Source: Ianthella basta
Taxonomy: Eukaryota > Porifera > Demospongiae > Verongiida > Ianthellidae
Direction of reading: 5' to 3'
Assembly (NCBI GenBank): GCA_964019415.1
Contig: OZ025873.1
Span: 4,983,677 to 5,047,676 of the forward strand
Length of the DNA: 64,000 nt
Shown here: piece after piece, positions 6,012-64,000 of the stretch
Position numbering within the stretch: position 1 is the stretch's first letter
How the letters are laid out: each line of letters opens with the position of its first letter
Notes under the pieces: model-generated
The model's database searches: none
Told to the model about the DNA's origin: nothing
Seen by the model: the letters and a program-made list of their open reading frames with translations, nothing else
Translations under genes and position numbers: made by a program

Positions 6012-7550
6012 CACACAGAGGATACAATCCAGTGCACCACAACACTCACAACCAAAGTACAGAAACGCGCAGGGTGGGACACACAACTGTATACTTACCA
6101 GACATGTGCCAAAGTGTTGTAGGTAATGATCTGCTCACGGGTCAAGTTCACCTCCACTGATAGAAACTATTGCATCCAGAAAGATGAAAGTGGTGTTACA
6201 GTCATTGGCATTGTATACCTACCAACACGTCCCCCTCTCCTCTACATGTACCTCTCGATAATCCAATGCCCTTCCCATCATTCATATAATTCCTACTCCT
6301 CCACTATGTCCAATTGCACACATATAGACATGTATGTACATTGAAGCAGTGTGACATACACACAGAACACACTGCATAGAACAGTTTGTAACACATGTCA
6401 CTGCCTCACACACGTACACATACACACATAAACACACATGCATACACGCAAACACACATGTACACATGCTCATGTGTGAATGAATGCAAACATGCACTAA
6501 TACACACCCAGCCCGCACAAAACCTGCTGCCATTGTTTAGTACGTACCTCAGTGTCATGGTAACTGAGTCCCCTGGAAACATACACCCCTGAAGCCTTCA
6601 TCTCCATGGCGATCATCTCAGCCGCCCCTAGCCCCCTCTGTGTGATGTTGCTGAGGAAGGACTCAAAGGACTGGTAGGGTAAGCACCGCCCCCACAGACC
6701 AAGGCGCTCCATGTATGCCTAATACAGTGCGGTACAACACAACTGGGATATAATGTAATCAATTGGTGTACACAGTGTAAACTGGAAGTGTATTTTGAAA
6801 GTACATGTACGTAAATTGCATGTGTGTTTGGGGAAATTTTCACATTGCTTCTTGTACAAGACAGCATTAGGTGCACCAAACACTGTGAATGGATAGTACT
6901 GTGTAGTCAGACCACCATTTTGTAGCCTACACCCTCCCAAAACATGTCTTTTGGGAGGGCGGAGTCCACAAAAAGGCAGTCTTGCTACACGAGCAAGCAG
7001 ATGTCACCATTGAGTAAGCACTCACCAAATTCTTAACTTCAGACACACCAGTGGCACTGCAGTAGACCACTCGGGCTTTAGGCAGCAGTCTGAACATGAA
7101 GTGCAAAAGAGCATATTTGCACGTCTGAACAATGTACGTATGTACAAGCAAACACTGCACACTCTAATACTAATGCTTGCTACTGTATATACAGACAATA
7201 GCCTTGCACAGTCGCACCGAATGACATGCATCATCTACGTATAAACTGCTTTCACTCAACGTTAAAATGCTTACACTCGAAGCAGCCTACATACCTCTGA
7301 AGTGTTGTCACAGATAGAGCAATCTTACTGCTGGCACCCTCCTTGCCCTGGGCAGAATGGATAAAGCTGCACATGTGATGCAACAGGGAAAGCACTCAGA
7401 TGTAAACACTATCTGGTCACTAGACAAGCAATAACCAGGTCACTATTTGGCCTGTCTCATGTAATCATCTTCCTACCTAAAAGGTGACAAGTATGCTAAT
7501 GTCTGGCTGACTAAGGCAACTAACAATGATCTGTGATAGTGCTAACAACC

Positions 7551-22525: not shown

Positions 22526-24645
22526 AAAGTTGCACCGATATGGTTTTTAACCGATTATCCGATTTCCAATTTTTCAGTGCTGATACCGAACCGATATTCC
22601 GATTTTCAGACAACTTCACTGTAGTATGACTCAAAGACAGGCATGCATGCATTCTCAATCACGCATGCAAATACAGAAGAAATAATGGAAAGTTGGAAAC
22701 AATACAACATGCAATAGCTTCATCAGCACTTGTGTTTGATAAGATTATAGTTACTCTTAATGAAGAGTAGAGTCTCAGCTCTTTCAGGTGCCAGTCTGTT
22801 TCGCTTGTCAGCATACACATCACCAGCCAGAGAAAATAACCTCACCGAGGGGACAGATTTAGGTGGGACACAAAGATACTTCTGTGCAAGATTTGCCAGA
22901 GATGGGAAGTGATTTTGGTTGTTTGCCCACCAAGTCAGGTATTCACTTCCCTTGTGGAATTCAATCAGGGGCTCACTCAGATACAAGGCAACTTCATTCC
23001 CAGAATCATTATGGACAGAGGCTAGTGCTTCTTCCAATATTTCTGAAAAGCATTCCAACAAGGCAGTGCGTGGACACTTTGGTGGTGGCGCCACTGAATC
23101 TGTCTCTGTTCTGTTTTGTTCAACTGAACTCAGTGCTGACACTTTCTGCTGAAGAAGTTCCCGAGCATCTGCTTGTGCTTGAACACTAGTGAAACACTTG
23201 TCCTTGAAGCGGGGATCCAGAATACTGCTTAGTACCAGGCACTCATGAGATTCAACATTTCCATACCTTCGCCGCAGAGACTTCAGCATCTATCTCTTCA
23301 TTCCTTGTACCCCATCATCATCATGGTGCTTCTCCAAGCACTTGGTCAGCATGCGGATGTATGGCAGTACCAGCGACACTGATGCAGTATCTGATGATAA
23401 GGACCTTGTGATCTCCTCCACAGGAGAAAGAGCAGCTACAACCTTGTTGGCAAGATCCAGTTGGTGAGATGACAACTGAGCAATGTCGTGCTTTTTTGCA
23501 TAGGCAGCAAGGGCCACCTTTTGCTCGATTACTGACTGGATCATGTAGAGCAATGAATTCCACCGGATTGGCTTATCTTGTTTTAGGCGATGTTGTGGCA
23601 ATCCAAGGTTCTGCTGAATTTCCTTCAAGCTGCAATAAGCAAGCGAAGAATGTTTGAAATGTCCAACAATTTTGCGACAAGCGGCAAGTAACCCAGTTAC
23701 TGCACGCTGAGAAAGAACACCATCATGCACAACAAGCTGCAAAGTGTGTGCAACACAGCCTATCGCTGGCAGAACTGCATCCCTCATGGCTTTCACCATG
23801 TTTACTCCATTGTCTCGAAGCACTAGGTGCACCTTGTCACTCGGGATTTCCCAGGAAGCCAGCATCTGTGTAAGCCTTTCTGCTAAGTATGTACCAGTGT
23901 GGGACTCTTCCAGTAGCTGAGTGTGGAGCACAGCTGTTTTCTTTGTGAAGCTGTCTGTCAACCAGTGAGCTGTTAGGCTGAGCAGAGAGTCATTGCTGAC
24001 ATTTGTGGTCCACACGTCTGTTGTGAAGCTGCAATGGGCCACATCATCAATCTCCTTCTTCAACTCAGCCTTCAGTTCTGTGAACATTCCCGAGATGATA
24101 CATTCGGTGAAATATTTTCTGCTTGGCAACGTGTATCTTGGTTCCAATTCTTTTATCAGCTGCTTGAAGCCCTGGTCCTCAACCACAGAGAACGGCTGAC
24201 AATTAAGTGCTATCATCTCGCCTATTCTTCTGTGAATACGCTGTGCGCGAGCATCATTAATATCCCAGACTCGTACGTGATCTCCACTTTCTCGAAGGGG
24301 CATTTGTCGGAAAGGTGCTGGACTACTTGATGAAGTCACAGCATTCTGCGCCTCAACCTTTTGCTGGAACTCTATATGCAGTTGAGTGTGCTTGACCCTC
24401 AAATGCTGCACCAAATTCGTAGTCCCATAGCTCTTGGAATTCTTGTCGCCGTGCTTTACCTTCTTCTTGCAGGCCTGGCACACTGCAAAGTTGGGGTCCT
24501 CGGTGATAGTGAAATAGTCCCACGCTGGTGACTTCCTCCTTCCTGGTGATTCCATGCGCAGCTAAGTAGATCCAGAACAAACCGACGATTCACAACAATG
24601 TACAAACACTCGCTGTAACACTTCACTTGCAAACGTCACGTGCTC
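22526..24645 (-). mobile_element. hAT-family DNA transposon, 5' end lost in the gap
   Basis: The transposase gene is read on the minus strand. Beyond its stop, 22528-22610 contains GTTGCACCGATATGG and repeated ACCGAT-ATCCGATTT motifs, which I take as the 3' terminal/subterminal repeats typical of hAT elements. The matching 5' terminus is not seen before the N run at 24646, so element length and the 8-bp target duplication cannot be confirmed. Confidence 0.7.
22723..24555 (-). pseudogene. hAT (ZBED-type) transposase with one in-frame TAG
   Basis: Reading starts at 24555 and runs 421 codons to TAG (23290-23292), then continues in the same frame for 188 codons. The N-terminal BED zinc finger shows W12-D-Y-F, C26-x2-C29 and H51-x4-H56. 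The core has TTDVWTT and LRDNGVNMVKAM around the expected catalytic Asp residues, and IGCVAHTLQLVV. The C-terminal dimerisation region shows YLTWWANNQNHFPSLA and VRLFSLAGDV. This is the order and length (about 610 codons) of Ac/ZBED1-like transposases, which cut and paste the element. The single stop means it is either recently inactivated, a sequencing error, or read through. It lies in opposite orientation to the microexon chain. Confidence 0.85.
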
Positions 24646-30229: not shown

Positions 30230-33200
30230 TTACAATTCATCAGTGTGAGAGACAGTCTCTGTGTCTTCATCTGTTGAAGTAGGCAGTCCAGCTCTCAGTT
30301 CTGTTATATTGACCAGGTTCCCAAGCCTGGCTGCTGGATCTTCTAGCAATGGCTCTTCATTATCCTCAGTATCCACCTTCTTCTTCCAGCAGCATCTCCA
30401 CTGATTACACTTTAACTTCACATACACCTTCCTTCCAAAGATAATTGCGGGATAAAGGAGGGGTAGATAGATGAGGATCATCCGAACAGAAGCATAGAAC
30501 AGCTTCAATGCAGTGTGTGTGTTACTGTCCATGATCTGCTCACTCAAGAGAAGGATGAGCACCATGTTGCCCAAGATGGCTGTGTCCAAGATATTCAGGC
30601 TGTCTGAGTTGTATGGTCGGAGAATGGCAATGAGCAATAGCAGTGCCTCAGTGAGGATGAGTTGTATACGGAGGGCATCTTCTGCCCTTGGTATGAACAC
30701 AGCAGCTAGAAGCTGAATGATGCGATGAAAGAGATAGAGTGAAGAGAAGCTCCTGTAACGTTCTTTGTAGCAACCTTGAAAGACATTGACAAAATGGTAT
30801 ATCCATCTGTCAGTGTAGATATTGCTGCAGAATGTCTGCATCCTCTGTAGCTTCCTCAATGGTGGCACAGCTATGATGAGCCTGCCAAACAACTGAGGCA
30901 TAATGGGAAGAGTGAGGACAAGAAAGGAAGGCAGAAGGACAAACACTAGCAGTATGATAATGGCTGGTATGAAGTAGGCAATGTGTTGAATGGAGCCATA
31001 GGGCACAGAGCCCTGCCACCACACCACCATCCTCTTCTCTCCATCCTCCCCTGTGATGGTCTGGTTGACAAGGATGTATGAGGAGCTGACCAAGAAGCGA
31101 GTGAAGCCAAAAATGACAAAAGCAGGAAGTGCTCTGTCATAAGACATGCCATCAGAGTACTTTGCCTTCCATCGTCTCATCCGCCTGAGGCACTGGTCCA
31201 CTCGGTGACAGCATATCCACTTCTCTGCAGACCTCTCCAGAACAATGAGTGTGATGGCCACTATCAGTGGGAAGAGTCCAATGGAGTAGTGCAACAAGAG
31301 TGTCTGTAACAGTGTGAGGTGCGAGTGTGGAATGAGACAGTAAGGAGGTAGAAGCACTCCAAAGAAGTCCAAGTTCCACACTCCATACAGAAATCGGTAT
31401 ATCTTGACAAATGCAATATGCACTGGTCCTAACTCAGCATCACCCCTGATACTGGAGAAAGCAAGGAGTTGTGCAAACAGAAGGAAAGAGTTGAATCTTC
31501 CTGACACCAAGTCAATGTTGAACAGCATCACAATGAACATGACAACCAGCATGGGCACCCACTCACTGAGGATCCAAACAATAAGTCCCACTGCGCTGAG
31601 ACCATCCTGACAACTGGTGCACACTGGTCTCATTCCATTGAAGTTCACTGCAATACTATTCTCTTCAAGGCAGTCCCCACAGAGTAGGCCTTTACGGTTT
31701 GATCCACCACAGACTATTTCTTCTAGTAGTTCCCTGGAGTTGTTATTAAGAAGAGTGGATTGTTGTGTTTGACAGTAACCTGGTGGGCAAAGGGCAGTAT
31801 AGAACTTCTGTCCTTCACAGCTATGTTGGTCATCAGATGGCAGATACCCAGCCCAATGGTCTCCCTGCAGCACAGCGCCAATGTTGTTTGGGTCAGTTTC
31901 ATTGCAGTCTTCTATCCCCAGTACTGTAGGCATTCCACAGTGACATGATCCCATGTCTCCAGACCCTATTCTGTATACGTAGCCAGGTGGGCAGCACTGG
32001 AGCTCAATGTTCATTAGTAACAGTAGGTTGTTATTGTCCACTGACTGAAGGGCGAGTTGTGGAACCGCAGTATATTTTCCTGTGGTATTGCTTTGGTTGG
32101 TAGAGGAGATGTAGTTAGTCGTGCTATGCTTTAGGGGAATGCCATGTAGAATAACTGTAAAATCAGATGTGTACTTTGAGAAAGGGTTGAGCTGGACATC
32201 AGCTGTGGGCTCTTCTGTGATAATTTGCACGGTGAATACTGTACTGGCTGCATTTCCAAGCTTATCATAGGCATGCTTATGAGAAAGCTGTTTCTGCTTA
32301 CCTGGAATGAACTTGACAGTGATAGGGTTGTCTGAATCAACAGGTCCACCATCCACATGATCTGGGTGGGATGCTACTAGTGGAAGTGTATGAATGGAAG
32401 TGTTGTGACTGCCATTACATTGTGGGTAAATGATGCCATCTACAATGCATACTTGGCGGTCATGTAACATATTAGCTCTCTGAAGATTTAGAACTCTGAA
32501 ATAAGTGATATTTGGTGGATTTTGGGGTCCAAGGAAATTCAGTATCAAATTGTTGCCAAAGCAGTTTTCAGCTTCACTGATGTAAACCGACTGTCCTTCA
32601 TGTTTTGCTGAGTTATTCTGGAACCAGATGCCATTAAAGTCTAGTGACACATTCTGTCCATGTTCATACTGAAAGAAGCAATTTACACGAGGTACTGCGT
32701 GTGTTACTGAATGTATGTAAAGGGCACCTCCTCGCTGGAAAGCATAGTTATTAGTCAGCCACAACATTGATTGAGTGGAAATACGTATGTAGCTTTCACC
32801 ATACAAAGCAATTCCCCCTCCACGTGAAGCAACACAATTGCTAAAATCTGTCATTGAGTAAGGTTTCAAAATGATTTCTGAATCAACTGCTAGTAGTCCT
32901 TGGGAAGTTGCCCCACAATAGAAGTTCCCTTGAAGCCGAATTTGTACTGATATGAGGAGAACCAAGCTTGTATTGGCCTTTATTTGAAAGAAAGGGTTAA
33001 TCTGTTTCTGCATGATTTCCAATACATTCTGTTCAACAGCTTGCGATATCCTCATTACTTCATGAGTAGTAGGGATGTCATATTCCATAGAAGCATTACT
33101 GGGATCTTCAAAAAGCAGCGACAAATTCTTGAGTGGTGTGGCAACAAATTCATCAAACTTAGCAGCATTTGTGTAAATGCATTTGGTTTTAATTGCAATG

Positions 33201-35203
33201 ATCTCTCGAAATAATGTCTTTCTAAAAAGTGGTGATGATTGCATTGCAAATGCATGTCCATACTTGGCTTGGTTATTAAGAAAAGTTGAGCCCACCATAT
33301 AAACTGCATCTCCACTGTCGCCAGTGTATGGAGAATGAACATAAAGCAAAGATAGCCCGCCACCAACTCCACCTTTTGCTTCATTATGGATGAACGTTGA
33401 CATGTTCAATAACACAATATTCTTTGTTGCAAAAATAGCTCTACTTGCTGCAAATTCTAAATGAATACCTCCTCCCATCATACTCATAATAGGACTGGGA
33501 CTTAGTGTATTACGCACGAAAACATTTGTATTTAGAAAGACTGCATTCCTTTCTGAAGAGTGGGTAAATTTGATGTATACTCCTCCTCCAACATGGGCCT
33601 TGTTGTTTGCCATGAATAAAAGCCTTGAAATAAAGCTATTTCCTGCTGCAGATCCACCCAGGAAAATTTGAAGCCCACCCCCTAGTGTTGCAGTATTGTT
33701 CTTTGCAACAAACTTGAACAAGCTGATTATATTGCTTTGTGCATGATCAATTAAATTTGCAACAAGACTTCCACCATTCTTGGACACATGGTTTACAATT
33801 TTGCTTTTGTATAGCTGTACACTATTTCTGGAGCAATCATCTGCAAAGGACAATGCAATTCCTATCCCTGATACGGTAGTACTGTTCACAACCTGTAGAT
33901 TCCACATGATCATCATGTTTTCATTTGTTCTGTCATTAAAGTTCACTAATATACCAAACCTGTTGATAAGTGGATTTTCTTTTGCTGTAAGTAGTACATT
34001 TTTCAAGTGAACTGTGTTAAATGCTGCCATATTTGCAAACATAAAATGCATGCCAGCAACATTCATAGGGCCATAGGTTGCAACCACTTGTGTGTTGGTA
34101 ATATTAATAGTGTTATGTGATGCTTGCACAAGCATTGAAACAGAAGAGTAGGCTTTGCTTGCACTACTATCAATTCTCTTGATCATCTCAAGCTGTCTTC
34201 TTGCACATTCAGACAGAACCTCTGTTCTGTTCTTGGTTTGGTAGCATTTGTCCCAACCATCCAATACATTAACTCCTTCCAAACTTACAGTGTTGTTGTG
34301 CATGTCATCAAGCAATCCCACAAATAGACCTGCACCTGATACAGGGGCACTGTTGAAGACAGTTACATTATGCAGTGATATTCTAGTGCCACTTCCTGTT
34401 CCACTAAACATGATCTGAATTCCAGAAATTGCCATTGAAGGGTCATATTCAGTGTGAGTGTTTGTGTTGACCACTTGTACATTATTCATGTACAGGTTGA
34501 AGCTGTTAGCTGGTGTTTGATTGCTTCCATGGATGTCACATAGTATTCCAGTCCCATAAGTTCCATTATGCAGTACAGAGACATCATATAGAGTGATCAC
34601 CCCATGGGCGACAATGTCCGTCAGTGCTATGCCACTGCCATATTGCCCTGTTATATGAACAGTTACATGTTGCAACGTCACATTAGTGCATTTGGAAAAG
34701 TGCAGGGTTGGTTTATCTTCAATAAGCTTGGGGTGTTCATGTTTGATGTAACCTTCAAACACCAATTCCCTGATTCTTACCTCTGTAAGATTTGTAAAAG
34801 CAACCATTGTTCCGTTAAGGAACTGCACTATGGGTGGTTTGGTAGAGCATTCACCCCTTAGAGAGAATGGTCCTTCAGTGATCACCAAGAGATCATTTTG
34901 TGGCAGAGAATAAACTGGCTGGAGATCATGGGTGCCGCACATGATTATGATGGAAGTAGAGTTTAGAGTGTTATGCAGAGCATACCGCAGAGACCTGCAT
35001 GACCTGCTAGGAGGTGGCTGTGCCATCAGTGCACCTACTGGTGTGTGGTGTATGCATTGAGGACCGTCCTCTCCCTTGGTATCAACCCACATGACTCTGT
35101 CACTCCTGACAACTGTCACTAGGCAGCACAGCACGGTCCACAGCAGGAAAGACACCCTGTGATAAACTGGATGCTGTTCCATCTTCATCTCCTTAGGTCT
35201 CAA
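30230..35203 (-). CDS. Large intronless secreted-ectodomain multi-pass membrane protein with beta-helix, 1657 aa
   Basis: One uninterrupted frame of 1657 codons, unlike the intron-rich genes around it. A signal peptide covers about residues 15-31. The ectodomain to about 1060 has repeated short strands, many Asn turns and N-glycosylation sites, with the CGTHDLQ-type N-terminal cap of pectin-lyase-like right-handed beta-helices. A Cys-rich segment follows (CCPPGYVY about 1068, LCPPGYCQ, LLCGDCLEEN, CTSC), then about eight hydrophobic segments from 1200 to 1590, including LYGVWNLDFFGVLLPPYC and YPAIIFGRKVYV. The acidic cytosolic tail contains EEPLLED. I recall families of this plan being expanded in sponges and cnidarians; ligand and function are unknown. 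A surface receptor or adhesion molecule is inference. Several Met codons precede the signal peptide, so the start may be Met6 or Met8. Confidence 0.85.
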   Translation of the reverse strand: MRPKEMKMEQHPVYHRVSFLLWTVLCCLVTVVRSDRVMWVDTKGEDGPQCIHHTPVGALMAQPPPSRSCRSLRYALHNTLNSTSIIIMCGTHDLQPVYSLPQNDLLVITEGPFSLRGECSTKPPIVQFLNGTMVAFTNLTEVRIRELVFEGYIKHEHPKLIEDKPTLHFSKCTNVTLQHVTVHITGQYGSGIALTDIVAHGVITLYDVSVLHNGTYGTGILCDIHGSNQTPANSFNLYMNNVQVVNTNTHTEYDPSMAISGIQIMFSGTGSGTRISLHNVTVFNSAPVSGAGLFVGLLDDMHNNTVSLEGVNVLDGWDKCYQTKNRTEVLSECARRQLEMIKRIDSSASKAYSSVSMLVQASHNTINITNTQVVATYGPMNVAGMHFMFANMAAFNTVHLKNVLLTAKENPLINRFGILVNFNDRTNENMMIMWNLQVVNSTTVSGIGIALSFADDCSRNSVQLYKSKIVNHVSKNGGSLVANLIDHAQSNIISLFKFVAKNNTATLGGGLQIFLGGSAAGNSFISRLLFMANNKAHVGGGVYIKFTHSSERNAVFLNTNVFVRNTLSPSPIMSMMGGGIHLEFAASRAIFATKNIVLLNMSTFIHNEAKGGVGGGLSLLYVHSPYTGDSGDAVYMVGSTFLNNQAKYGHAFAMQSSPLFRKTLFREIIAIKTKCIYTNAAKFDEFVATPLKNLSLLFEDPSNASMEYDIPTTHEVMRISQAVEQNVLEIMQKQINPFFQIKANTSLVLLISVQIRLQGNFYCGATSQGLLAVDSEIILKPYSMTDFSNCVASRGGGIALYGESYIRISTQSMLWLTNNYAFQRGGALYIHSVTHAVPRVNCFFQYEHGQNVSLDFNGIWFQNNSAKHEGQSVYISEAENCFGNNLILNFLGPQNPPNITYFRVLNLQRANMLHDRQVCIVDGIIYPQCNGSHNTSIHTLPLVASHPDHVDGGPVDSDNPITVKFIPGKQKQLSHKHAYDKLGNAASTVFTVQIITEEPTADVQLNPFSKYTSDFTVILHGIPLKHSTTNYISSTNQSNTTGKYTAVPQLALQSVDNNNLLLLMNIELQCCPPGYVYRIGSGDMGSCHCGMPTVLGIEDCNETDPNNIGAVLQGDHWAGYLPSDDQHSCEGQKFYTALCPPGYCQTQQSTLLNNNSRELLEEIVCGGSNRKGLLCGDCLEENSIAVNFNGMRPVCTSCQDGLSAVGLIVWILSEWVPMLVVMFIVMLFNIDLVSGRFNSFLLFAQLLAFSSIRGDAELGPVHIAFVKIYRFLYGVWNLDFFGVLLPPYCLIPHSHLTLLQTLLLHYSIGLFPLIVAITLIVLERSAEKWICCHRVDQCLRRMRRWKAKYSDGMSYDRALPAFVIFGFTRFLVSSSYILVNQTITGEDGEKRMVVWWQGSVPYGSIQHIAYFIPAIIILLVFVLLPSFLVLTLPIMPQLFGRLIIAVPPLRKLQRMQTFCSNIYTDRWIYHFVNVFQGCYKERYRSFSSLYLFHRIIQLLAAVFIPRAEDALRIQLILTEALLLLIAILRPYNSDSLNILDTAILGNMVLILLLSEQIMDSNTHTALKLFYASVRMILIYLPLLYPAIIFGRKVYVKLKCNQWRCCWKKKVDTEDNEEPLLEDPAARLGNLVNITELRAGLPTSTDEDTETVSHTDEL

Positions 35204-37249
35204 TTTGGCAATATGCAGTGTAGTGAACAGTCGATGTAGTTGCTAGCAGTGTATCTCCTACTTCTTATCTGAAGAATTCTTTTGATCTGTAGAAATGGCA
35301 GTGATATTTTGCAGATCTAGAGTAATTCGCAATTCGTAGAATGTATTTGAAGTAGTACAATTATTCGTATATGCTAGTATGTTGCTGGCTTGGTGGTACT
35401 CCGTGATGTGGAGTATTATTGTTTTAACCCCAGCTGGTAGCTAATATAGTCTTCCTAACCTAATTGAGTATTGTCCAGGTTGCATCAAGAATGTTCCTAT
35501 TGTGACCTTTAGTTGTTAACATAGCTGGCTGTTCATGTAGTTCACAGGTACACATTATTGTTCTCATGAAAATCACATTTCTATACTTCTGAACTAACTA
35601 GAGTTGGAGATAAATACTGCACAGGTACTTACGGAATCAGAAGACTTTAATGTATACTGCAAGGATTTACAGCTTTGGTTGCGCTGACACCGACATCAGT
35701 ACTGTACTGAACTGAAATCAAGCCAGAGCTTAAATACTCGTTGTATGTGTTCAATTCTTACTGCACATATAACGTGCAATGACCTTTGCAATTGACCAAC
35801 ATGTACTTGTCACATGCTAGTGTTGTTTAGGTAAAAACTTGTTATGAAAGTCCACCTGATCACGTTCTGCTATGAAACTGATAGTGAATCATGTCCAATA
35901 TAAGTTGAATAACTATAGCTCAATGGATACAACAGTCTATATCTATATACAATTTCAAATTTCAGTTTGTATAATTATACACTGTCCACAAGGACCTAAT
36001 GTCCAACAGCTCACCAGAATACATTCATGTACTTGACCTAAGCTGCCTGATTGTTGAGTATATATTACACTCTATGGTGTTAGGCACGCCTTAGATCATT
36101 GTATTCTGAATAATGGACATTAATAATAAGGCATTGAGTCTCTGAGCAAATTCATGCACTAGTTAGTGGCATGAACACCACCTTCCCCAGTTGTCGCTTT
36201 GTCACTTTAAATAGTTAAAAACTTATCTTCTAATTCATTGCACACAATGATGTTGACAGGTTTGGTGAAGTATGAAGCACTATCATCAGGTCTCATCAGC
36301 TATTTAGACATAATTATATGCATACCAGGGGTGCATGGTCACTTTGCAAGTTTTACATGTTTGTAGCAAGATGTACAATGCTATATTGTGCTGCATTATC
36401 CATTGCTATGTAGATCATACCTCACTTCCATGTGCAATATTCACTAAGCTAAATAGCTGGAATGTAAATACTGGCAAATAAAACATTTAATGAGAAATGA
36501 ATTTTACAAAATTGAAGGGCAATTGGCAGTGAGGTCAATTTGTAGCGTCACCTGGGAATGACTTGCTCACAGGACATCTAGACATAATATTATAATGTGT
36601 AACATTAGCTACAGAAACTGGATTGATCACTGGGACACACTATCCATAAAAAAATAGAATCCCGTCATTTCGGTCCAATCCATGACCCATTATAGCTTCA
36701 TTGTGAAGTCCAGTCAAATTCAACTTCACTGCGTTCCCTTGATTGATCCAGCAAGCAATTAAGAACCTGTACATGTATGTAGCCACACAGAAGCTTTCTC
36801 ATCAGATACAGTCTTAACTCAATGCACTGATTCAATTAGTAGCATGACGTATATCTTGTAGAATCTTCTACAATAGTTACTGTGTAGCATACTTAGGTAC
36901 ATAACATTGTGCAGTTCATTCTGCCAACTAGTTATAATGGATGTCAACCTCTTCGAGTTCTTTTGTGAAACTGATGATAATCACATTCTGTATTAGCTGA
37001 ATACTTGTTCAATTCAGCAGTCTATGATTTCAGTTTCATACATTATCTATTCAATCTTCAATGTCCTCCAACATGGCACAATTTATTATACTCTCGGCTA
37101 CCTTTATGGTATTCAACACATATCACCTCATTGTTATGTATATGAACATACAAAATAAGTCCAATGATTGGATCCTTAAGCAGTGGCATAATTATCTCAT
37201 TTTTATCATTACATATAGTCTGTACACATTTAGCGTGCCAAATAGCTAG
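35204..37249. other. Upstream region of the beta-helix gene with a diverged copy of the 1.4-kb repeat
   Basis: 35204-35290 resembles the flank of the truncated paralogue. At about 35770-35905 a segment (CACATGCTAG, CACCTGATCACGTTC, GAAACTGATAG) matches the interior of the 25798-28500 tandem duplication. A weaker echo is near 36935-36990. No gene is seen. Confidence 0.5.
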
Positions 37250-54751: not shown

Positions 54752-57700
54752 ATGGAAGAAGTTTGTTCATTCTGTTTCAATAAGCCTCATGACTCCCAAT
54801 GCAGCCCTAAGTCAGAAGCAAAAGGAGGTAAGGGCTTGCTCTGGTGCCTGCTTGTGTCCATGGTGCGCCCTCTCGTAAACCCGAACTATTGATATCGTAG
54901 AGTCTGACTTAGTCCATAGCTACATTACAATTGATGTAAACTGAACTCTTCCCTGCGCAGATCCACCGAAGTGTTCGGTATGTGGCCAGCTATGGGAGGC
55001 ACAGCGGATTGCCCGTACACAAGCTGGTAAACCTGTCCCCATTCGACAGAGGCCGTCAATATCACCATTCACTAAGTACGAGCGCTGTCAAAATGAATCA
55101 CCTTGCCCACATGGGGAGAAGTGCAGTTGCGCTCATTCTGACGAAGAGTTGCATCATTGGTTTCTAGAAAGGGTGAAGAAGAAACCTAGGCTGCAACCTC
55201 CCCAGGGAGCAAACCCGCCATTCCAAATGTGTAGCAGCTTGCAGAGAAGTGCCTTTTGCCAGAATGACGTACACTGTCCCTTTCCACACTCTCAGGAGGA
55301 GCTAGATGCATGGGTGGCAAGGTAAGTGCAACTATCCCCCTTTCACATGGGCAATGGGCAAGATCAATTATGATTCAAAGCCATAATTGAATCTGGATGA
55401 AAGCAATTGCTGTCAGTGTTAATTGTGTTATTAAATGTATTCTTATTTCTATATGTATAGAAATAAGAATATGTATTGGTACAGCCAATTTCAGAATGAT
55501 TGTCCAAAATGGTAAATGGCAAATGGCATGACATCATAACAAAAGGCAATACTGTGCAGTAGGTGTGAGGTAATGGCAAGCAGTTAAACTACATAATAGC
55601 CATTCTCCCATTTGCCATTTTGGCCAACAATTCTGAAATTGACTGTATTGTATAAAGCTGGTTAGGGATTGAATTGGCACAGAGGCGCTCTAGTCTCATG
55701 TAGCCTAGACCGCTTCCTCTCCTCCATTTTTATATTATGACGTCATCGATCGGGGAGGAAGGGTCTGGTCAACAGCCTATACCGTTTTTGTTCTGAGCCC
55801 CACTGATGTTGGGGCTCATTAATATGCATTTACCATAGTGATAATGTTATTCATAATAAAATTGCATGGGCAACGTGAAAGCGAGATCGAACGTTCAATC
55901 AATGATGGAAGCGATTTTGAGAGACTGTACGCACGTGCTAGCAGACATTGCTGGATCGTTTTGAATCACCTCTTTCAAGGATAAGCAAAATGAAGTGCTG
56001 AGAGCATTTTTGAGTATCCCTACCACTCAAAAATGCTCTCAGCACTTCATTTTGCTGCCATCATTGATTGAACATCCAATCTCACTTTCGCATTGCCCGT
56101 GCTATTTTATAATGAATAACATGATCACTATGGTAACTGCATATTAATGAGCCCCAACTTCAGTGGGGCGCAGAACAAAAACGTCATAGGCTGCTGACCA
56201 GACCCTTCCACCCCAACTGATGATGTCATAATACAAAAAATGGAGGGGAGGAAGCGGTCTGGGCTACATGAGACTAGAGGCACTCAGGTGTGGCTGAGTT
56301 GCTGATATAGCACGTATAGTTGAGTGTTGTTGATACAGCCTAATGCATGTGGTTGAGTGTTTTGCTGAGACAGCATGAGGTGAAGCCATATTTGTAATTA
56401 TAATGTGGTTAAGCTGTCAATGGAGGTTGCATAAGTAAATGTACTCTTAGGGGCAAGCCCAAGCAACACTTACATGGTGTTTACTGCTGTGGTTGCGTTT
56501 AATGTGTATGAGCAAGCACGTGCACGGCCTTTGGTCATGCTAGCTCGGTATCGTATCACCGGGTGGACAAAGAGCGATACAAAAATACCTGCGTGCAGGT
56601 AGCCAGAGCAGCTTCCTCTCATGAGCAAATAACAGTAAACTTCTGCACAAGTCTGCAGCACTAGGTAGACCCAACCTGATGAGCACACAGAGTGTCTAAG
56701 AGATTGCTAGCTGTGAGGCGCATGCACACGACCAGAGCGGCCATGTTTGCACTTACATGATTATGTCATCCTATGAGATGCCTGGTTCTAATGACATACA
56801 CGAACGGACAAACAAACAGACTGAAAAAGATTGATTATATTAAAGATTATATATTGCAAGAATATCTTATATAGTGAATGTGCAGTATGTCGTGCTGTAT
56901 GGCTCTATTTCTCATTCAAAATGAATGCCACTTCTGAACCTCTTGAATATCTGCTGCGGAAAGCTTACAGAGACAGTTTAATTGAATGTAAAAGAGGGCA
57001 AATTGTCTAATCTGTTCGCATTCGACAACCACTGGAAAGATATTGGGAAGATCTTATTTCCCTATACGTCCAAAAAAAACTCTTCTCAACACCATATAGT
57101 GGGAAGAGATATTCACAAAGCCTGAAGCACAATATGCAGGCCTACAGTGTTAACTAGGTAGCTCCTTCAGCATTATACTTCACCATCAGTCAAAATTATT
57201 GTGTGAAGTGCAATGCTTTTGTTCAACTAGCAGAAATCTCTCAGTCAGAGCTTTCTATAGCTTCCTGACATTCCAACTACGTAGCTTGATGAGAAAGAGG
57301 AATGGCTGTGCAGGAGGAGTGAGTGAGGCAGCAAAATGGAGAAGGGTTGTGCCTACACTGATAAGACAGGTCTCATTTGTCTGCCTTTGCAGAGCAGACA
57401 GAGATAGCTAGTTACTGCATGCCCTACAGTGGAAGAGTGCACTCCAGTGGGAGAGACTGAGGGGCAAAATAGCTTTTGGTAGAGACAGACCAGGATGCAG
57501 CATCAGTATGACTCCTCTGGGCAAATGAATGCTTATTTAACTGCACGATGCGAGGGGTATATAATAGATGTAGACCTCTTGGTGTGCGATACGATATGTA
57601 TACAGCACTCACCCTCAGGTGTTCCCACCCTCGGGACTCGAGCACAATAAGATTTCTATAACTATTAAGTATTATCCTCGAAATAGTTGGCCATAGGCAT

Positions 57701-60700
57701 TAGTGAAGTTAGTGTAGCTGTGCTTGCAGATGGTTTCATCAATCCCATTCATATCTTGCAGTGATGATGTAGGGGAACGTGAGGCTTTGAGGGTCTTGTT
57801 ACTTGATTTTGTACCAAGAATGGAAGGGAAGTGGGACTACATTGGCTTTCAGCTGAGGCAGGGCAGTCTCGTTGCCAAGTTGAGGTCTTCGCCAGAGTCA
57901 AATACTCAGAAGTTGCTACATATCTTAAATGCCTGGTTTGACAGTAATCACTTGGAGGCTCCAGTTCGTGCTGCTACTGTCTCCACAGTTCTTCGGTCAG
58001 GAGCTGTGAAGCTAGACGATGTTGCCAGTGACTTTGCAGAGGTGTGTTTGGTACACATGACAGTGTACATGGTTTCTGCAAATCATGTCAATAGGCTAAC
58101 CCTATAATAATATAAAGAATAATGTTTTTTTAAGTGACCACAGTTTGCACACTGTGGTACCTGATACAGGTATGTGTATACTCCTTACACTTCCTTCTTC
58201 ATCTACAGGCAGTTAGAAAGCAGAAAGAACTGCAACTACTGGGTAAGTGTGCTACTTACTTTGGAAAACTATGAAACACAAAAATGTGGAGTAGAATCAT
58301 GATGGAATACTGATGAATTAGCCACTATAGTGGTTTTTTATAACTTGTGGGGTTACTGCACAACTCATAATACTTGTTCCTTTGGTTGCTGCTCTGGAAG
58401 CAGATTGAGAGGAGGCAGTTCATGCTTTCTCAGAGTGGCTGTCATGGCACAAAGTGCGCACACATGGCTCAAACAATTCAGTCTCTGAGCGCTGCCATTT
58501 TAACCATGTATACTGAGTGCATGGTGCAAAGTGTAAACGTTTGACTCTATACGGAACATGATCTCTAAAACAATAAAATCTTTATAGCAGCTGGCCACGG
58601 TTTGGGTCATTTGCAACTGTTTCTTGCACAACAGTAAACGTGCAAATAGACCAGTTGCGTATAAGCGTTTAGGAATGCAGTACGTCATAATTGCCTATGA
58701 CGTCATCACTGGTGGCAGTTTAATACATTGAAAAGATAAGGGAAAAGGTGTTGCACCGGCAGCCTCGAGCGTTTCGTGCCGAATGATCCCATTTAGATGT
58801 CTCGGCTGGGTGGTACGCATGAATACGCACCTGACGGTCGTTGATTGAGGTTGATACGGCCTATGGTCGCCAAGATTGAGACTCATGAAGGAGAACTTGC
58901 CGACAAAAATGTGGCGAACGATACTTCTCTACAAGATCTTTCGACACTCCTGGACACGGAATAGCTTCTAGTTGAACTACCACCTACAAAGTATCAAGGT
59001 TAGCTACAGGTAGCGATAGTAACGCAAGGATGCGGGTCATAGCCTTATTAGCCGTTACTCGCTGGTTAGTCACACTCCAGACATCTCCATCTCGGTGCCT
59101 GCTGTGGTGCTTCACCGAAATCGTGTCAAGAAGTCTTTGTTCACCACATTCCGGTCGCTCATGTCGGCGAATTCCTCTTCACGAGTCTCGATCTCGGCAA
59201 CCGTATGCCTTAGCAACTTCAATCAACGACCGTCAGATGCGTACTCGTGCGAACCATTCAGCTGAGCCATCTAAATGGGAACATTCGGCATGAAGCGCTC
59301 GAGGCTGCCGATGCAACACCTTTTCCCCTATCTTTTAAATGTATTAAACTGCCACCAGCGATGACGTCATATGCAATTATCACCTTAACCACAACATTCC
59401 TGAGTTACACACAACTGGTCTATTTGTGGCAGAAACAGCTGCAAATGACCCCAATGTTTGCACAGCTGTTATGTGAGATATTAACGGTTTACAGAAGATC
59501 ATGTTAGGGTTAATATCAACTTACTAACACATCATTAGACTCTACTGTACCCTTTATGTGTCAGGACTTAATGCAAATACAGAATATGTTTGTCATAGTA
59601 TACATTCCTAACTGTACTTTAAATTTCCTTCCAAAAGTCCTACTATCATAAACGTCCTACCATTTGAATACCCTCTCTATTTCAGTGTTGTATATTAATG
59701 TATGTTGTGGTGAAATCAGTACCCTTGTATTCCATGTGTGCTTTAGGTACAGCATCACAAGCCCCTCCTGAACAAATGGATGAAAAGGGTAGGTTGGAGA
59801 TGGAACACCCTACATCTGTGAAGTCATTCTAAACAAACTGTAGTATGTTTCCTCAATATACAGACTGGTCACAGGCGATAATGTTTGGTCATAGGGAATA
59901 TAATTTATCAAATGACAATGCATCGATCAATTTTGTACTTGCTGCAGCTGTGGTACATTGATTCGAATGACACAAAACCCATAAATCAGAATTTATTGAG
60001 TCCTTGTGTCAGTACAAACGTCATTTAGCACTTTGATCCCACCTGTTTGAAAGCCTTGGCAGTGCTGACTTCACTCTAGCTACAAAAGCTCTGGAAGACT
60101 GATATGAGGTGATTTGGTTATTGCATGTGAGTTATGGCTATGTAAACAATGCGGCTACCCCACGTGACTGATTTTGACCTTCGTAATTTGGCTTGGTTCT
60201 CATGCTTGCTCAGCTGGATTAGAGTGAGACTAGAACCAAACGAAAGACAAAGAACCCCTCTATCAAACTGTGGACGATTCATGTTAACAATCCCTTCCGT
60301 CATCGAGATATACGGGCGAACACAAAGTGATTGTAAAAGCAGTTAAAGCCCGTGTGGTAATCAGGGAAAGTTGCTGTCAGCAGAAAAAGTTTCATCCGAT
60401 GCGCATTAGCACTATCTAACTTTTCCATGTGGCATAAGTTGTTAAACCATTCCGCTCTGGAATTATCATAAGAAAACTTCGACTAATAGTTGGTGCCAAA
60501 AATATCAGCTCGCATAACTCCAGCTAAGAATAATGGGTAGCATTGTGCCACATGGAAAGGCCAGAAAATTTACTTGGCTAAACTTTTCAATGTTGAACTA
60601 GACGAGAAAGCGTCGCAACAATTACCACACGGCAATTTCCTGACTACACTGGCCAAAAGCCCTCCATACTCATGATAACACGTGATATCCCCGTGACATT

Positions 60701-63638
60701 TCCAGAAAATGTCCGACGATGCTGTGATTCGTCGTGCTATTCGATGGTTATACTAAAACAATTTTGATCAGAACTGCAAGGTAAGGCTGTCACCGTCTTT
60801 GAGCATGTATCTAGCTGCAAGATACCCCATTTTGAACCAAATTCGGCCTCAGGCGCCTATCAGATCACGCGCATGTCATGTGCCAACGCTCGCATTACCA
60901 TGGCAACACAGGAATTCACACCTTGTGTCGTATTACCTTATGTAAACAAAACTGGCATAACCCACATGCGATTGCTGTATACCTCATGAGCATGCTTGTT
61001 GCTAGGAACAGGATGAGAACACGTACAGTACTTATAATTTCGTTGGTTGACCTAATATGAGACAGTACAAATCGAGATATGTTTGATGTCAGATCTGGTT
61101 AGAATTCACACCTCACGGTATTTCACAGCAATTTGAAACCAGTTCATTATACTAAAATGATGTGAATGGAGTTATGAAAATGCCTGCTTAGTTTAATATG
61201 TGATCGAACAATAGCTACACACGAAGACAGTTGCGCAGGTGATATTTCACAGAAGTATAATAATACTGGTTACTGCTTTATTGATATCTGCGATTGATAT
61301 CTTCATTGATAGCTGTGATTTAGCTCAGTGACAACTCTGGCATACAACTCAGTGACAGTGGTTCAGTATACAAGACTGGATATATAGGAGTAATGTTTAT
61401 AATGATAACAAACAGGATATAAATGCCAGAAGTTTCAATTTGGAGATACCCTCATGGGTGGAGGTTGCCTCCATCTATAATGTGTATGTGAAAGGTTAGA
61501 GTTTGTTCATCATTCTTCCTCTACATTTCATGTAGTTAAACAAGTGATTGACCTCTTCCGAGAACAAAAGGATTGGAAGCCAGAGGACGCTGTGAGGGAA
61601 TTTGCACATCGGGGCATTATTTCAAATGCAGAAGAAGTGATTAAACTTTTCCAAGGCCGAACCATTGATGAATTGGATGTAGTGGCTATGATAAGGGAAC
61701 TTGGACAGAGTGGCACTGTTTCAAATGCGGAACATATTATTGACCTGTTTCAAAAGGGCTACCATAAAGATATTGATACAGTGGCTATTGTGAAGGAGCT
61801 CACACATCAGGGTGTAGCCACAAATATGGAACAAATAATTGGCCACTTTCAGAAGCGCTTGGCTCAAGGCACAAATGCTGAACCATCAACAGTTAAATTT
61901 CAGGAGCAGCTTGTTGAAGAAATGGATTCAGGTATGTACAGTAAGTGCAATGTTGTCCTTGTTACTGCAGTTGGAATTGGTTGTATTTACTGGCTATGCA
62001 CAGTATAGCAAGGAAGCCACAGACTGTACAGCATTCTGTATCTAATCATTGACAACCAATCGTTCTTATCAATATTACTTACTAATAATTTGTTCTGTTG
62101 ACTGCTCTTGTCCTGTGTGCAAGAAAATACTTCCTTTGCGTAAAATTATTGTGTCTCAGCATCTCAACATCTCAGTTTTGTATGCCTGACAAGCCCATGT
62201 TGGGCAAAACATTGCTGCCTGAATTATCAAGCGACTTAAATTGCACTTGATCGTCCAAAAAAGTAAACTATAGGTTGAGTCAACAGCCAACAGACACTCT
62301 TGACATGGATGAACTGTGTGGCCGGTAAATATCATGTTTTTTGCATTACCGTGGATGCACATGCGACTGTGAATGATGTGTGTGTATGTTATTTGAGAGG
62401 TCAGATTTTATATGTTTGTGAATTGTATCATGCCCAGACACTCTGATTCTGCTTAGCTCTCACTTGCCAAACTGATAATTTCTGCTATTCCACTTGAGTC
62501 ATTGATGGCCTACTTCTCATAACAGCTATTCCTCGGCCTCTATTTGGAGGAGATAGAGAGGCAATATGAAGGTCAATTTGTTTACATAGGACCTAACCCA
62601 CATTAGAACTGAATTCAGCTTGCCTAATGACTTACATGACACATGCACTATTGTTCTTTTGCACTGTATTATTTATTACAGGTCCAGGACCAGTAGCTGA
62701 TGATGGCAAGATGAAAGAAGCCGAAGCCAAAGCCCCTGCTGGTAATGTTTGTAGTGATATTAATATTTGTTGTGTTATAATGTGTTAAACTCTTATTCAT
62801 GACTGCAGGAGACTGCTGCCCAAAATAAAATAACAATATATAGTCAGTAAATGTATACATACCCATTGAGTGACTGTGAAACGTGCAAGGAGCACATAGA
62901 AGAGGGTTACACACTCAAAAGATTATCTAATTCTCAGGCTACTGCTAATTCTCATGTTGTCACCAGTTGCAGCACCATGACTGACAGATAGGAATTTGAT
63001 TGACTGACTTGTTTTTTTCTGCAGATGAAGAGATGATGATTGAACCAAAGGCAGTTGATAGTGATCAGGAATCAGAAGACTTCCAATGCACGCAAACGTT
63101 TGCTGACAGAGTTGTAGAGGACCGCATTACATGGACAGGATTTGATAACTGGGAGTACAAATTTGTTGCTGAGGCTGTAGACGTGGCTACAGGGATTACA
63201 GTTACTTCGGGAAAGTACTTATCCCAAGGGGGTGCTAAAAAGCACGCAAGAGCTGATCTCAAAGAGATTCTTTTGCAGAAACGCATCATCCAAGAAGGTA
63301 AATATTAATTAGTATAATAATTATTGCTCTGATATAGTCTACGCTATATATAAATCAGACATACGTTCGTGACGTCTATTTAGGAATGTGCCCGGTTCAA
63401 AATAGCGACCCAAGAACAAAGTCACAGACTTTGAAGTCTTGCTTGAGTGTGTAGTGTTGTGTTGAGACCTAGTATTTGCCCTGCATGCTCTGCAGTGTAT
63501 GTCGACCCCTTAAAGAATTGGACTGAGGTAGAGCGAATTGGACGAGGAAGCTGTGGAGATGTGTTCCTCTATCGGAATACTGTCACTGGACAGCAACAGG
63601 CTGTCAAAATGGTTTACTTCGACCAGAATGATAAGAAG
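54752..63638 (+). CDS. Zinc finger (CCCH)-Death-like-helical repeat-dsRBD-like-protein kinase fusion, partial at right edge
   Basis: Nine exons join in phase: 54752-54827, 54961-55321, 57762-58041, 58209-58242, 59747-59788, 61536-61931, 62682-62741, 63025-63297, 63496-63638, giving 555 codons; the frame runs on past the window. An in-frame TAA directly precedes the ATG. Order of parts: C5-x2-C8-x4-H13-x3-C17 knuckle and C30-x2-C33; CCCH fingers C68/C74/C80/H84 and C116/C125/C131/H135, both followed by S-x-E-E-L-x2-W; Death-like helices (about 150-239); linker; 33-residue helical repeats (265-370); acidic linker; dsRBD-like fold (about 450-500); kinase N-lobe with GRGSCGDV glycine loop (G523-V530) and AVK lysine 545. 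No signal peptide or membrane segment is seen, so cytosolic. Role in RNA-triggered signalling is inference; HRD and DFG motifs lie outside the window. Confidence 0.8.
54961..55321 (+). other. Exon encoding paired CCCH zinc fingers
   Basis: One 361-nt exon carries both fingers: C-x5-C-x5-C-x3-H (residues 68-84) and C-x8-C-x5-C-x3-H (116-135). Each is followed by the same tail, AHSDEELHHW and PHSQEELDAW. The (A/P)HS-x-EEL-x2-W tail recalls CCCH fingers of HELZ/HELZ2-type RNA helicases, suggesting RNA binding; the relationship is from memory and untested. Confidence 0.75.
55691..56276. mobile_element. 586-bp foldback element with about 200-bp arms and 9-bp target duplication
   Basis: Begins TAGTCTCATGTAGCC and ends GGCTACATGAGACTA. 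Flanks are GAGGCGCTC (55682-55690) and GAGGCACTC (56277-56285), 8 of 9 identical. Arms stay complementary for about 200 bp. The centre holds a second perfect 31-bp inverted repeat (55985-56015 and 56025-56055) with a 9-nt loop. Long arms and 9-bp duplications fit Mutator-like MITEs. It lies in intron 2 of the kinase gene. Confidence 0.8.
57762..58041 (+). other. Exon encoding a Death-domain-like module
   Basis: 280 nt, residues 146-239. Helical pattern: REALRVLLLDFVPRM, KWDYIGFQLRQG, SLVAKLRSSPESNTQKLL, HILNAWF, APVRAATVSTVLRSG, VKLDDVASDF. The W..IG, NTQKLLHILNAWF and final V.L..VA spacing fits Death-fold domains. Assignment is by eye; another six-helix domain is possible. Confidence 0.5.
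58588..59468. mobile_element. 881-bp long-TIR foldback element in kinase-gene intron 4
   Basis: Left arm from CAGCTGGCCACGG to about 58890 is the imperfect reverse complement of about 59165-59468, which ends CACAGCTG. Shared blocks include GGTCATTTGCA, AATAGACCAGTTG, GCCACCAG next to TGACGTCAT, GGTGTTGCA and ATCAACGACCGTCAG. No transposase. The target duplication is unclear (TTAT on both sides at most). Confidence 0.7.
60123..60968. mobile_element. 846-bp non-autonomous TIR element, family member 2
   Basis: TIRs GCATGTGAGTTATGGC and, inverted, GCATGTGGGTTATGCC. Subterminal TATGTAAACAATGCGG, TTTTGACCTTCGTAA and GGCAACACAGGAATTC are shared with 19641-20557. It lies in intron 5 of the kinase gene, which is why that intron is long. 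Confidence 0.7.
61536..61931 (+). other. Exon encoding tandem helical repeats of about 33 residues
   Basis: Residues 265-396. Repeat starts VKQVIDLFREQKDW, AEEVIKLFQGRTID, AEHIIDLFQKGYHK, MEQIIGHFQKRLAQ are spaced 31-33 residues. The second halves are shared: DAVREFAHRGIISN, DVVAMIRELGQSGTVSN, DTVAIVKELTHQGVATN. Two predicted helices per unit, reminiscent of PPR/TPR-like hairpins but not assignable to a named family by eye. Confidence 0.75.
62562..62606. mobile_element. Solo end fragment of the same TIR family
   Basis: Inverted, this reads ATGTGGGTTAGGTCC, TATGTAAACAAATTGACC, TTCATATTGC, matching the left end of the 19641/60123 elements. No partner end is nearby, so it is a remnant in intron 6. 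Confidence 0.45.
63025..63297 (+). other. Exon encoding a dsRBD-like domain
   Basis: Residues 417-507. After an acidic leader, the segment WEYKFVAEAVDV, then TVTSGKYLSQGGAKKHARAD and LKEILLQ follow the strand-strand-strand-helix half of double-stranded RNA-binding domains, where G-x-S-x-x-x-A-K-x-x-A binds RNA; here SQGGAKKHAR occupies that place. The N-terminal helix is short or diverged. Needs profile confirmation. Confidence 0.5.
63496..63638 (+). other. Exon encoding the kinase glycine loop and catalytic lysine
   Basis: 48 codons: NWTEVERIGRGSCGDVFLYR, then NTVTGQQQAVKMV. G-x-G-x-x-G-x-V and the A-V-K lysine are standard for the N-lobe of eukaryotic protein kinases. It reads more like MAP3K/STE-type kinases than eIF2-alpha kinases to my eye, but the diagnostic C-lobe is beyond the window. 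Confidence 0.9.
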
Positions 63639-64000
63639 GTAAAGCACCATTCTATACATTACAATAATATCTTTTTCTTGTGATGCCTGAATTATATGTA
63701 CATATCTCTCCATAGCAACCATCCTTAAGCTTATTAGCCCAATGATTCAGAACACGGTCGCACTTTTTGCTAGACATTTACTTTACCAGTAACGTCAGTC
63801 AAATGTAATAATTGCTACTGCTTCACATTGCTTGCTCAACTTCAACCCATCTCATGCGATTATGAATAATTGTAATCTGTCATCATTGTGTAAGATGGCC
63901 ATATTATATAGTGATGTCAATCTGGGCACATTGTCCTTAAGTGCCCTTGTTTAGCATATCCCAGTAAAGCTCGAAAACATTTAAAGCTTTTTTGAACAAC

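Follow-up and report, generated by a model that had tools for sequence, protein, structure and literature searches.

In the sponge Ianthella basta we found a chain of 15 exons that joins into one open reading frame for 776 amino acids, in which two CCCH zinc fingers, a Death domain, 33-residue repeats, a small domain encoded by exon 8 and a protein kinase domain follow one another. The exon chain is well supported, and the order of the domains is unusual. No paper with CCCH fingers, a Death domain, the exon-8 domain and a kinase together was found in the open-licence literature, in line with the sequence-only reading of this DNA, which had considered the combination undescribed. As judged from its sequence, the product most likely binds RNA, assembles through its Death domain and works as a MAP3K-like signalling or scaffold protein. 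More specifically, we tentatively prefer the reading that a single gene encodes a signalling protein that binds RNA and combines a Death domain with a kinase domain of the MEKK2/3 type.

Structure of the gene

The window, i.e., the whole stretch of 64,000 nucleotides that was analyzed, corresponds to G000:C6:4983677-5047676 of a 209-Mb assembly, and the gene runs past its right edge. Nine exons had been proposed at 54752-63638; all their junctions are indeed of the GT-AG type, the phases agree, and the resulting 555 codons end in the N-lobe of a kinase. Exon 9 ends at 63638 and is followed by a GT donor beginning at 63639. Six more exons beyond the window complete the frame, so that the 15 exons occupy positions 54752-68835 (window scale), with a TGA stop codon at 68833-68835. 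The features are the following:

Exon 1, 54752..54827, plus strand: start codon and a C-x2-C-x4-H-x3-C peptide; paralog loci L014-L018
Exon 2, 54961..55321, plus strand: two CCCH fingers; genome paralogs, family profile, dN < dS
Intron 2, 55322..57761, plus strand: long inverted repeats at 55688-56279, MITE-like
Exon 3, 57762..58041, plus strand: Death domain; genome paralogs and intermediates on contig C2
Exon 4, 58209..58242, plus strand: short linker of 34 nt; splice signals and phase only
Intron 4, 58243..59746, plus strand: long inverted repeats at 58601-59454, MITE-like
Exon 5, 59747..59788, plus strand: short linker of 42 nt; splice signals and phase only
Exon 6, 61536..61931, plus strand: 33-residue repeats, three plus a partial one
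Exon 7, 62682..62741, plus strand: linker of 60 nt; splice signals and phase only
Exon 8, 63025..63297, plus strand: small domain, weakly release-factor-like, common to AIG1 GTPases
Exon 9, 63496..63638, plus strand: kinase N-lobe with the GRGSCG loop and AVK
Exons 10-15, 64779-68835 on the window scale (L009:1179-5235), plus strand: remaining kinase and stop codon, beyond the window

Exon 1 is 57-80% identical to its counterparts at L014-L018 across 15-26 residues, and exons 4, 5 and 7 are without paralog support. The NCBIfam scan returned kinase models alone, all of them below their cut-offs.

Substitution rates were compared between the exons and their paralogs. For exon 2, dS was 1.0-2.1 and dN 0.22-0.30 (five pairs, at least one of which includes a stop-holding copy); for exon 3 the values were 0.9-1.3 and 0.32-0.42 (three pairs; a fourth was saturated), and for exon 8 compared with the copies in AIG1 GTPases 1.0-1.1 and 0.36-0.43 (two pairs). 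The comparison of exon 8 with its nearest copy gave dS/dN of 0.25/0.18, counter to constraint. Among the kinase exons, dS/dN was 0.83/0.34 for exon 9, 0.64/0.23 for exon 11 and, with no sign of constraint, 0.38/0.42 for exon 10 compared with the sister kinase described below. The paralog rates thus point to constraint for exons 9 and 11, not for exon 10. Since dN is lower than dS in exons 2, 3, 8 (AIG1 pairs), 9 and 11, the exon chain appears to go beyond chance.

Two other elements of the window, both on the minus strand, should be mentioned: remains of a hAT-type transposon at 22726-24561, with frames for a BED finger and hAT dimerisation, and an open frame of 1670 residues at 30233-35242 that has no Pfam match at 0.001.

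CCCH fingers, Death domain and repeats

The presence of two CCCH fingers in exon 2, noticed from the letters alone, agrees both with the spacing of the ligands (C-x5-C-x5-C-x3-H in finger 1 and C-x8-C-x5-C-x3-H, the classic spacing, in finger 2) and with a family profile. Taken alone, exon 2 falls below the Pfam cut-offs, and WAP (0.012) ranks over zf-CCCH (0.061). A profile built from 13 copies matched Roquin-1 (4.2e-5), ZC3H7A (4.4e-5), TIS11d (9.7e-5) and TTP (1.1e-3) among the 11 solved PDB sequences listed; Roquin-1 and ZC3H7A aligned with the first finger, TIS11d with the second and TTP with both. The module was found in at least 43 other places of the genome at E <= 5e-24, located on contigs C10 (32), C7 (7), C11 (3) and C3 (1). 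The spacing is also seen in the CCCH alignment (A4), which was made without L015, L017, L020 and L014, the last of which has an in-frame stop. Judging by the family to which they belong, the fingers likely bind RNA.

The Death-like module was confirmed through intermediates only. Exon 3 itself has no Pfam match, and the profile of its family retrieved no Death chain from the PDB. Used as a query at E <= 0.01, exon 3 revealed 46 further places in the genome. Pfam Death was matched by four of 20 family members at E <= 1 (best value 8.5e-4), and two members on contig C2, L098 and L099, exceed the Pfam Death cut-off (5.7e-7 and 2.6e-6, respectively). These two loci were found by the exon 3 query at 6.5e-4 and 7.4e-4, and they are 28% identical to exon 3, with an alignment along the domain. 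Exon 3 is therefore assigned to the Death domains by a chain leading from exon 3 to L098/L099 and from there to Pfam Death. The alignment (A1) comprises exon 3 and 19 of 20 fetched Death stretches (without L081 and without the C7 stretches of L016-L018) and is a sample in which most of the 46 other places are not aligned. A dense run of Death-domain places was observed at G000:C6:9.05-9.39 Mb.

Of the helical repeats claimed previously, the repetition is present, in exon 6, with a period of 33 residues; the best diagonal scored 118 compared with at most 42 in 500 shuffles. A genome search with exon 6 at E <= 0.1 revealed no second match.

The exon-8 domain

Exon 8 had been described as dsRBD-like, and this part of the description found no sequence support. 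None of 15 members of the exon-8 family matched Pfam dsrm at E <= 1, exon 8 is not among the 27 dsrm places of the genome, and the hhalign comparison of its profile with dsRBDs from 15 of these 27 places gave a score of 12.3, which is within the values obtained from 100 column shuffles. By these results, exon 8 was rejected as an ordinary dsRBD at the level of sequence. It should be mentioned that the same hhalign method does not link release factors with dsRBDs either, so that it says little about the fold. The release factor domain and the dsRBD share a fold class, and the earlier impression may be right at the fold level.

A weak resemblance to release factors was noted. Searched against the PDB, the family profile matched RF-H (0.0095) and, at 0.33-0.40, twelve RF2 sequences that are very similar to one another, with unrelated chains at 0.099-0.11 and 0.71-1.2 in the same search. 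By hhalign, the family scored 25.6 (probability 29%) against a mixed release-factor set, 23.2 (15%) against 47 release factors, for which the maximum of 100 column shuffles was 21.9, and 22.2 (11%) against 33 ArfB sequences, for which the corresponding maximum was 18.4; of 578 confirmed loci, the best 80 made up the release-factor set. The match covers the C-terminal part of the domain alone. Pfam RF-1 was matched by one of 15 family members (E 0.14), the search with PF00472 did not find exon 8 itself, and a single consensus-like sequence used as a query gave no match. The GGQ motif is absent from all 15 rows of the alignment (A2), which contains exon 8 and 14 of 17 other places (without L037, L049 and L050). 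The exon-8 domain, which lacks GGQ, weakly resembles in sequence the release-factor (GGQ) domain. For TRADD-N, PF13820 gave no match here and none in any control, and TRADD-N was absent among the Pfam hits of the A2 members. In viral contigs, 76 pattern matches to the exon-8 domain were detected, none of which was confirmed as a relative.

The domain was also revealed at sixteen places on contig C7, at 2.05-2.45 Mb (L035-L050). Eleven of these, all with long frames, were tested for AIG1, the other five having short frames, and all 11 encode AIG1/GIMAP-type GTPases that end in the exon-8 domain. Among the listed titles and abstract starts from the open-licence literature, no paper linking GIMAP with release factors or dsRBDs was found. 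A lone copy of the domain, 68% identical and without a kinase match, is located at approximately 6839-7186 on the minus strand of L072 (G000:C6:7306500-7316499), between frames that resemble reverse transcriptase by eye; its sequence suggests that the splice donor has been lost.

The kinase domain

The N-lobe recognized in exon 9 continues rightwards into a nearly full protein kinase domain (Pfam 1.4e-63, profile positions 2-259 of 263). The proposed extension of the sequence in search of HRD and DFG led to both motif sites, which read HMD and DFD. A third change replaces the helix-C Glu by Gln, and we take these positions (helix-C Glu, HRD Arg and DFG Gly) to have catalytic roles. The glycine loop, the beta-3 Lys, the catalytic Asp and Asn and the Asp of DFG remain unchanged. 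Among solved structures only, the nearest chain is MAP3K2 (192 bits), followed by ASK1 as the next molecule (149 bits). By sequence, the kinase is of the MEKK2/3 type and not of the PKR type.

Its closest paralog among the matches listed is a sister kinase at L073 (G000:C6:8952000-8961999), 50% identical over 265 residues, which has similar exon borders and for which MAP3K2 is likewise the nearest chain. The sister is devoid of the beta-3 Lys, the helix-C Glu, the catalytic-loop Asn and the DFG Gly, and so looks like a catalytically dead pseudokinase. A Death domain suspected by eye upstream of the L073 kinase, at 1096-1566, was discarded, having neither Pfam nor local profile support.

One gene or two

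Ahead of exons 2, 6, 8, 9 and 10, the stretch from the acceptor back to the closest stop contains no ATG in frame, and therefore none of these exons can begin a protein alone with ATG. This, together with the 15 GT-AG exons in one frame, favours the one-gene reading. For the first three exons, additional evidence comes from contig C7, where the CCCH module occurs at seven places, five of them with a Death match on the same strand 185-272 bases downstream. At three of these five (L016-L018), exon 1 is followed by CCCH and then Death, and at L014 and L015 exon 1 and CCCH are present without a Death match. Because the order exon 1-CCCH-Death recurs on C7, exons 1-3 can be regarded as a unit. Stops or lost zinc ligands are found in some of the C7 copies, and, as in-frame stops occur in several C7 matches, some of the five CCCH-Death units may have decayed. 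For the joins between exons 3 and 8 and between exons 8 and 9, the support consists of splice signals and phase, and both joins are seen in no other gene.

We consider it quite unlikely that two genes were read as one, an upstream gene with CCCH and Death and a downstream gene with the repeats, the exon-8 domain and the kinase (or with the break elsewhere). Such a division would be consistent with the in-frame ATG upstream of exon 3, at 57730, with the shortness of exons 4, 5 and 7 and their lack of paralogs, with the inverted repeats within introns 2 and 4, and with the stop at 63306 into which exon 8 reads if intron 8 is retained. The ATG and the stop, as well as the 11 AIG1 frames that end with the exon-8 domain, weaken the one-gene reading. 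Against a division speak the recurrence of CCCH-Death as a unit on C7, the lack of an own ATG in exons 6, 8 and 9 and the agreement of phases along the whole frame.

Comparison with known proteins

MAP3K2 and MAP3K3 (MEKK2/3) carry an N-terminal PB1 domain. The gene shares with them the kinase domain, for which MAP3K2 leads the solved chains with 43 bits more than the next molecule, but has no PB1 (Pfam, E <= 10), has altered catalytic motifs and adds the CCCH fingers, the Death domain, the repeats and the exon-8 domain. In PKR (EIF2AK2), dsRBDs stand ahead of an eIF2alpha-type kinase; the plan with RNA-binding parts before a kinase is similar, whereas here no dsRBD was found by profile and PKR is not among the best 60 of 2780 chains. 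IRAK/Pelle combine a Death domain with a kinase, a plan that is also similar, but the best chains for our kinase are MAP3K2, ASK1 and STE20-type, with no IRAK among the best 60 of 2780. ZAK (MAP3K20) has accessory domains different from those of this gene, and the likeness is limited to the MAP3K type of kinase. PMC12823453 presents ZAK as a MAP3K triggered at collided ribosomes.

The combination of CCCH with a kinase has a precedent, since a table of PMC3710099 lists kinases of the RNase L/Ire1 family, some of which have CCCH. Like them, the gene has a kinase domain; unlike them, it has neither a KEN nuclease nor ankyrin (whole-protein Pfam scan), its kinase is nearest to MEKK2, and a Death domain is added. 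The paper also mentions sponge sacsin-like proteins with Death domains. The main text of PMC8195603 describes 357 Amphimedon proteins with TRADD-N. In most of their architectures, Death-like domains stand at the N-terminus and the C-terminus varies, a kinase being one of the possibilities; AIG GTPases are found in comparable proteins of other animals. The position of the Death domain near the N-terminus and the possibility of a C-terminal kinase are common to these proteins and to our gene, which differs from them by its CCCH fingers, its MEKK-type kinase and the domain shared with AIG1; the words 'ccch' and 'map3k' are absent from that main text. The gene looks like a novel version of the Death proteins with shuffled domains that sponges are known to have.

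Possible role of the protein

In the preferred reading, the CCCH fingers would bind RNA, the Death domain would recruit or oligomerise partners, as the respective families do, and the repeats and the exon-8 domain could provide further binding surfaces. Copies of the protein gathered on RNA might then have their kinase activated toward a MAPK cascade, or the kinase domain might serve as a docking platform. This explanation is supported by the CCCH profile, the Death chain, the kinase with MAP3K2 as the nearest structure and the exon-8 domain in 11 of 11 AIG1 frames, as well as by the main text of PMC8195603, which describes sponge proteins whose Death domain stands at the N-terminus and whose C-terminus varies and may be a kinase. 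It is weakened by the altered kinase motifs, the degraded sister at L073, the similar dN and dS of exon 10 and the lack of a Death chain among the PDB matches. The sequence-only reading had proposed an RNA-sensing innate or stress kinase; of this architecture, CCCH, Death and kinase in one frame stand, while the dsRBD is unsupported, the kinase is not of the PKR type and three catalytic motifs are altered. From the domains present, the protein may act as an RNA sensor, possibly in innate or stress responses.

How far the kinase domain is a catalyst separates this reading from a scaffold that transfers no phosphate and in which a pseudokinase would provide the Death and CCCH parts with a docking site or a switch. 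We regard such a scaffold as somewhat unlikely: the three altered motifs, the 50% identical sister that also lacks the beta-3 Lys and the catalytic-loop Asn, and the absence of constraint in exon 10 agree with it, but the retained glycine loop, beta-3 Lys, catalytic Asp and Asn and Asp of DFG speak against it. The best matches of the finger profile (Roquin-1, ZC3H7A, TIS11d and TTP) would also suit a post-transcriptional regulator of the Roquin/TTP sort, in which the fingers choose mRNAs, the kinase domain regulates and foreign RNA is not sensed; this seems unlikely, as the Death domain and the GTPase-shared domain would rather point to adaptor or defence settings. Finally, in a highly improbable but specific version, the protein would be a MAP3K that watches translation. 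Its exon-8 domain, which lacks GGQ, would derive from a release factor and still dock to ribosomes or tRNA, the fingers would hold mRNA, the Death domain would cluster the copies, and stalled or foreign translation would be passed to a MAPK cascade; this would be an independent ZAK-like solution, with the docking domain shared by the AIG1 GTPases.

If the preferred reading of one protein is right, RNA-binding fingers would have been connected in an early animal to a kinase of the MAP3K type by way of a Death domain, and the exon-8 domain would tie the gene to the AIG1/GIMAP GTPases. The gene would then be a concrete candidate for coupling the recognition of RNA or stress to signalling in such animals.
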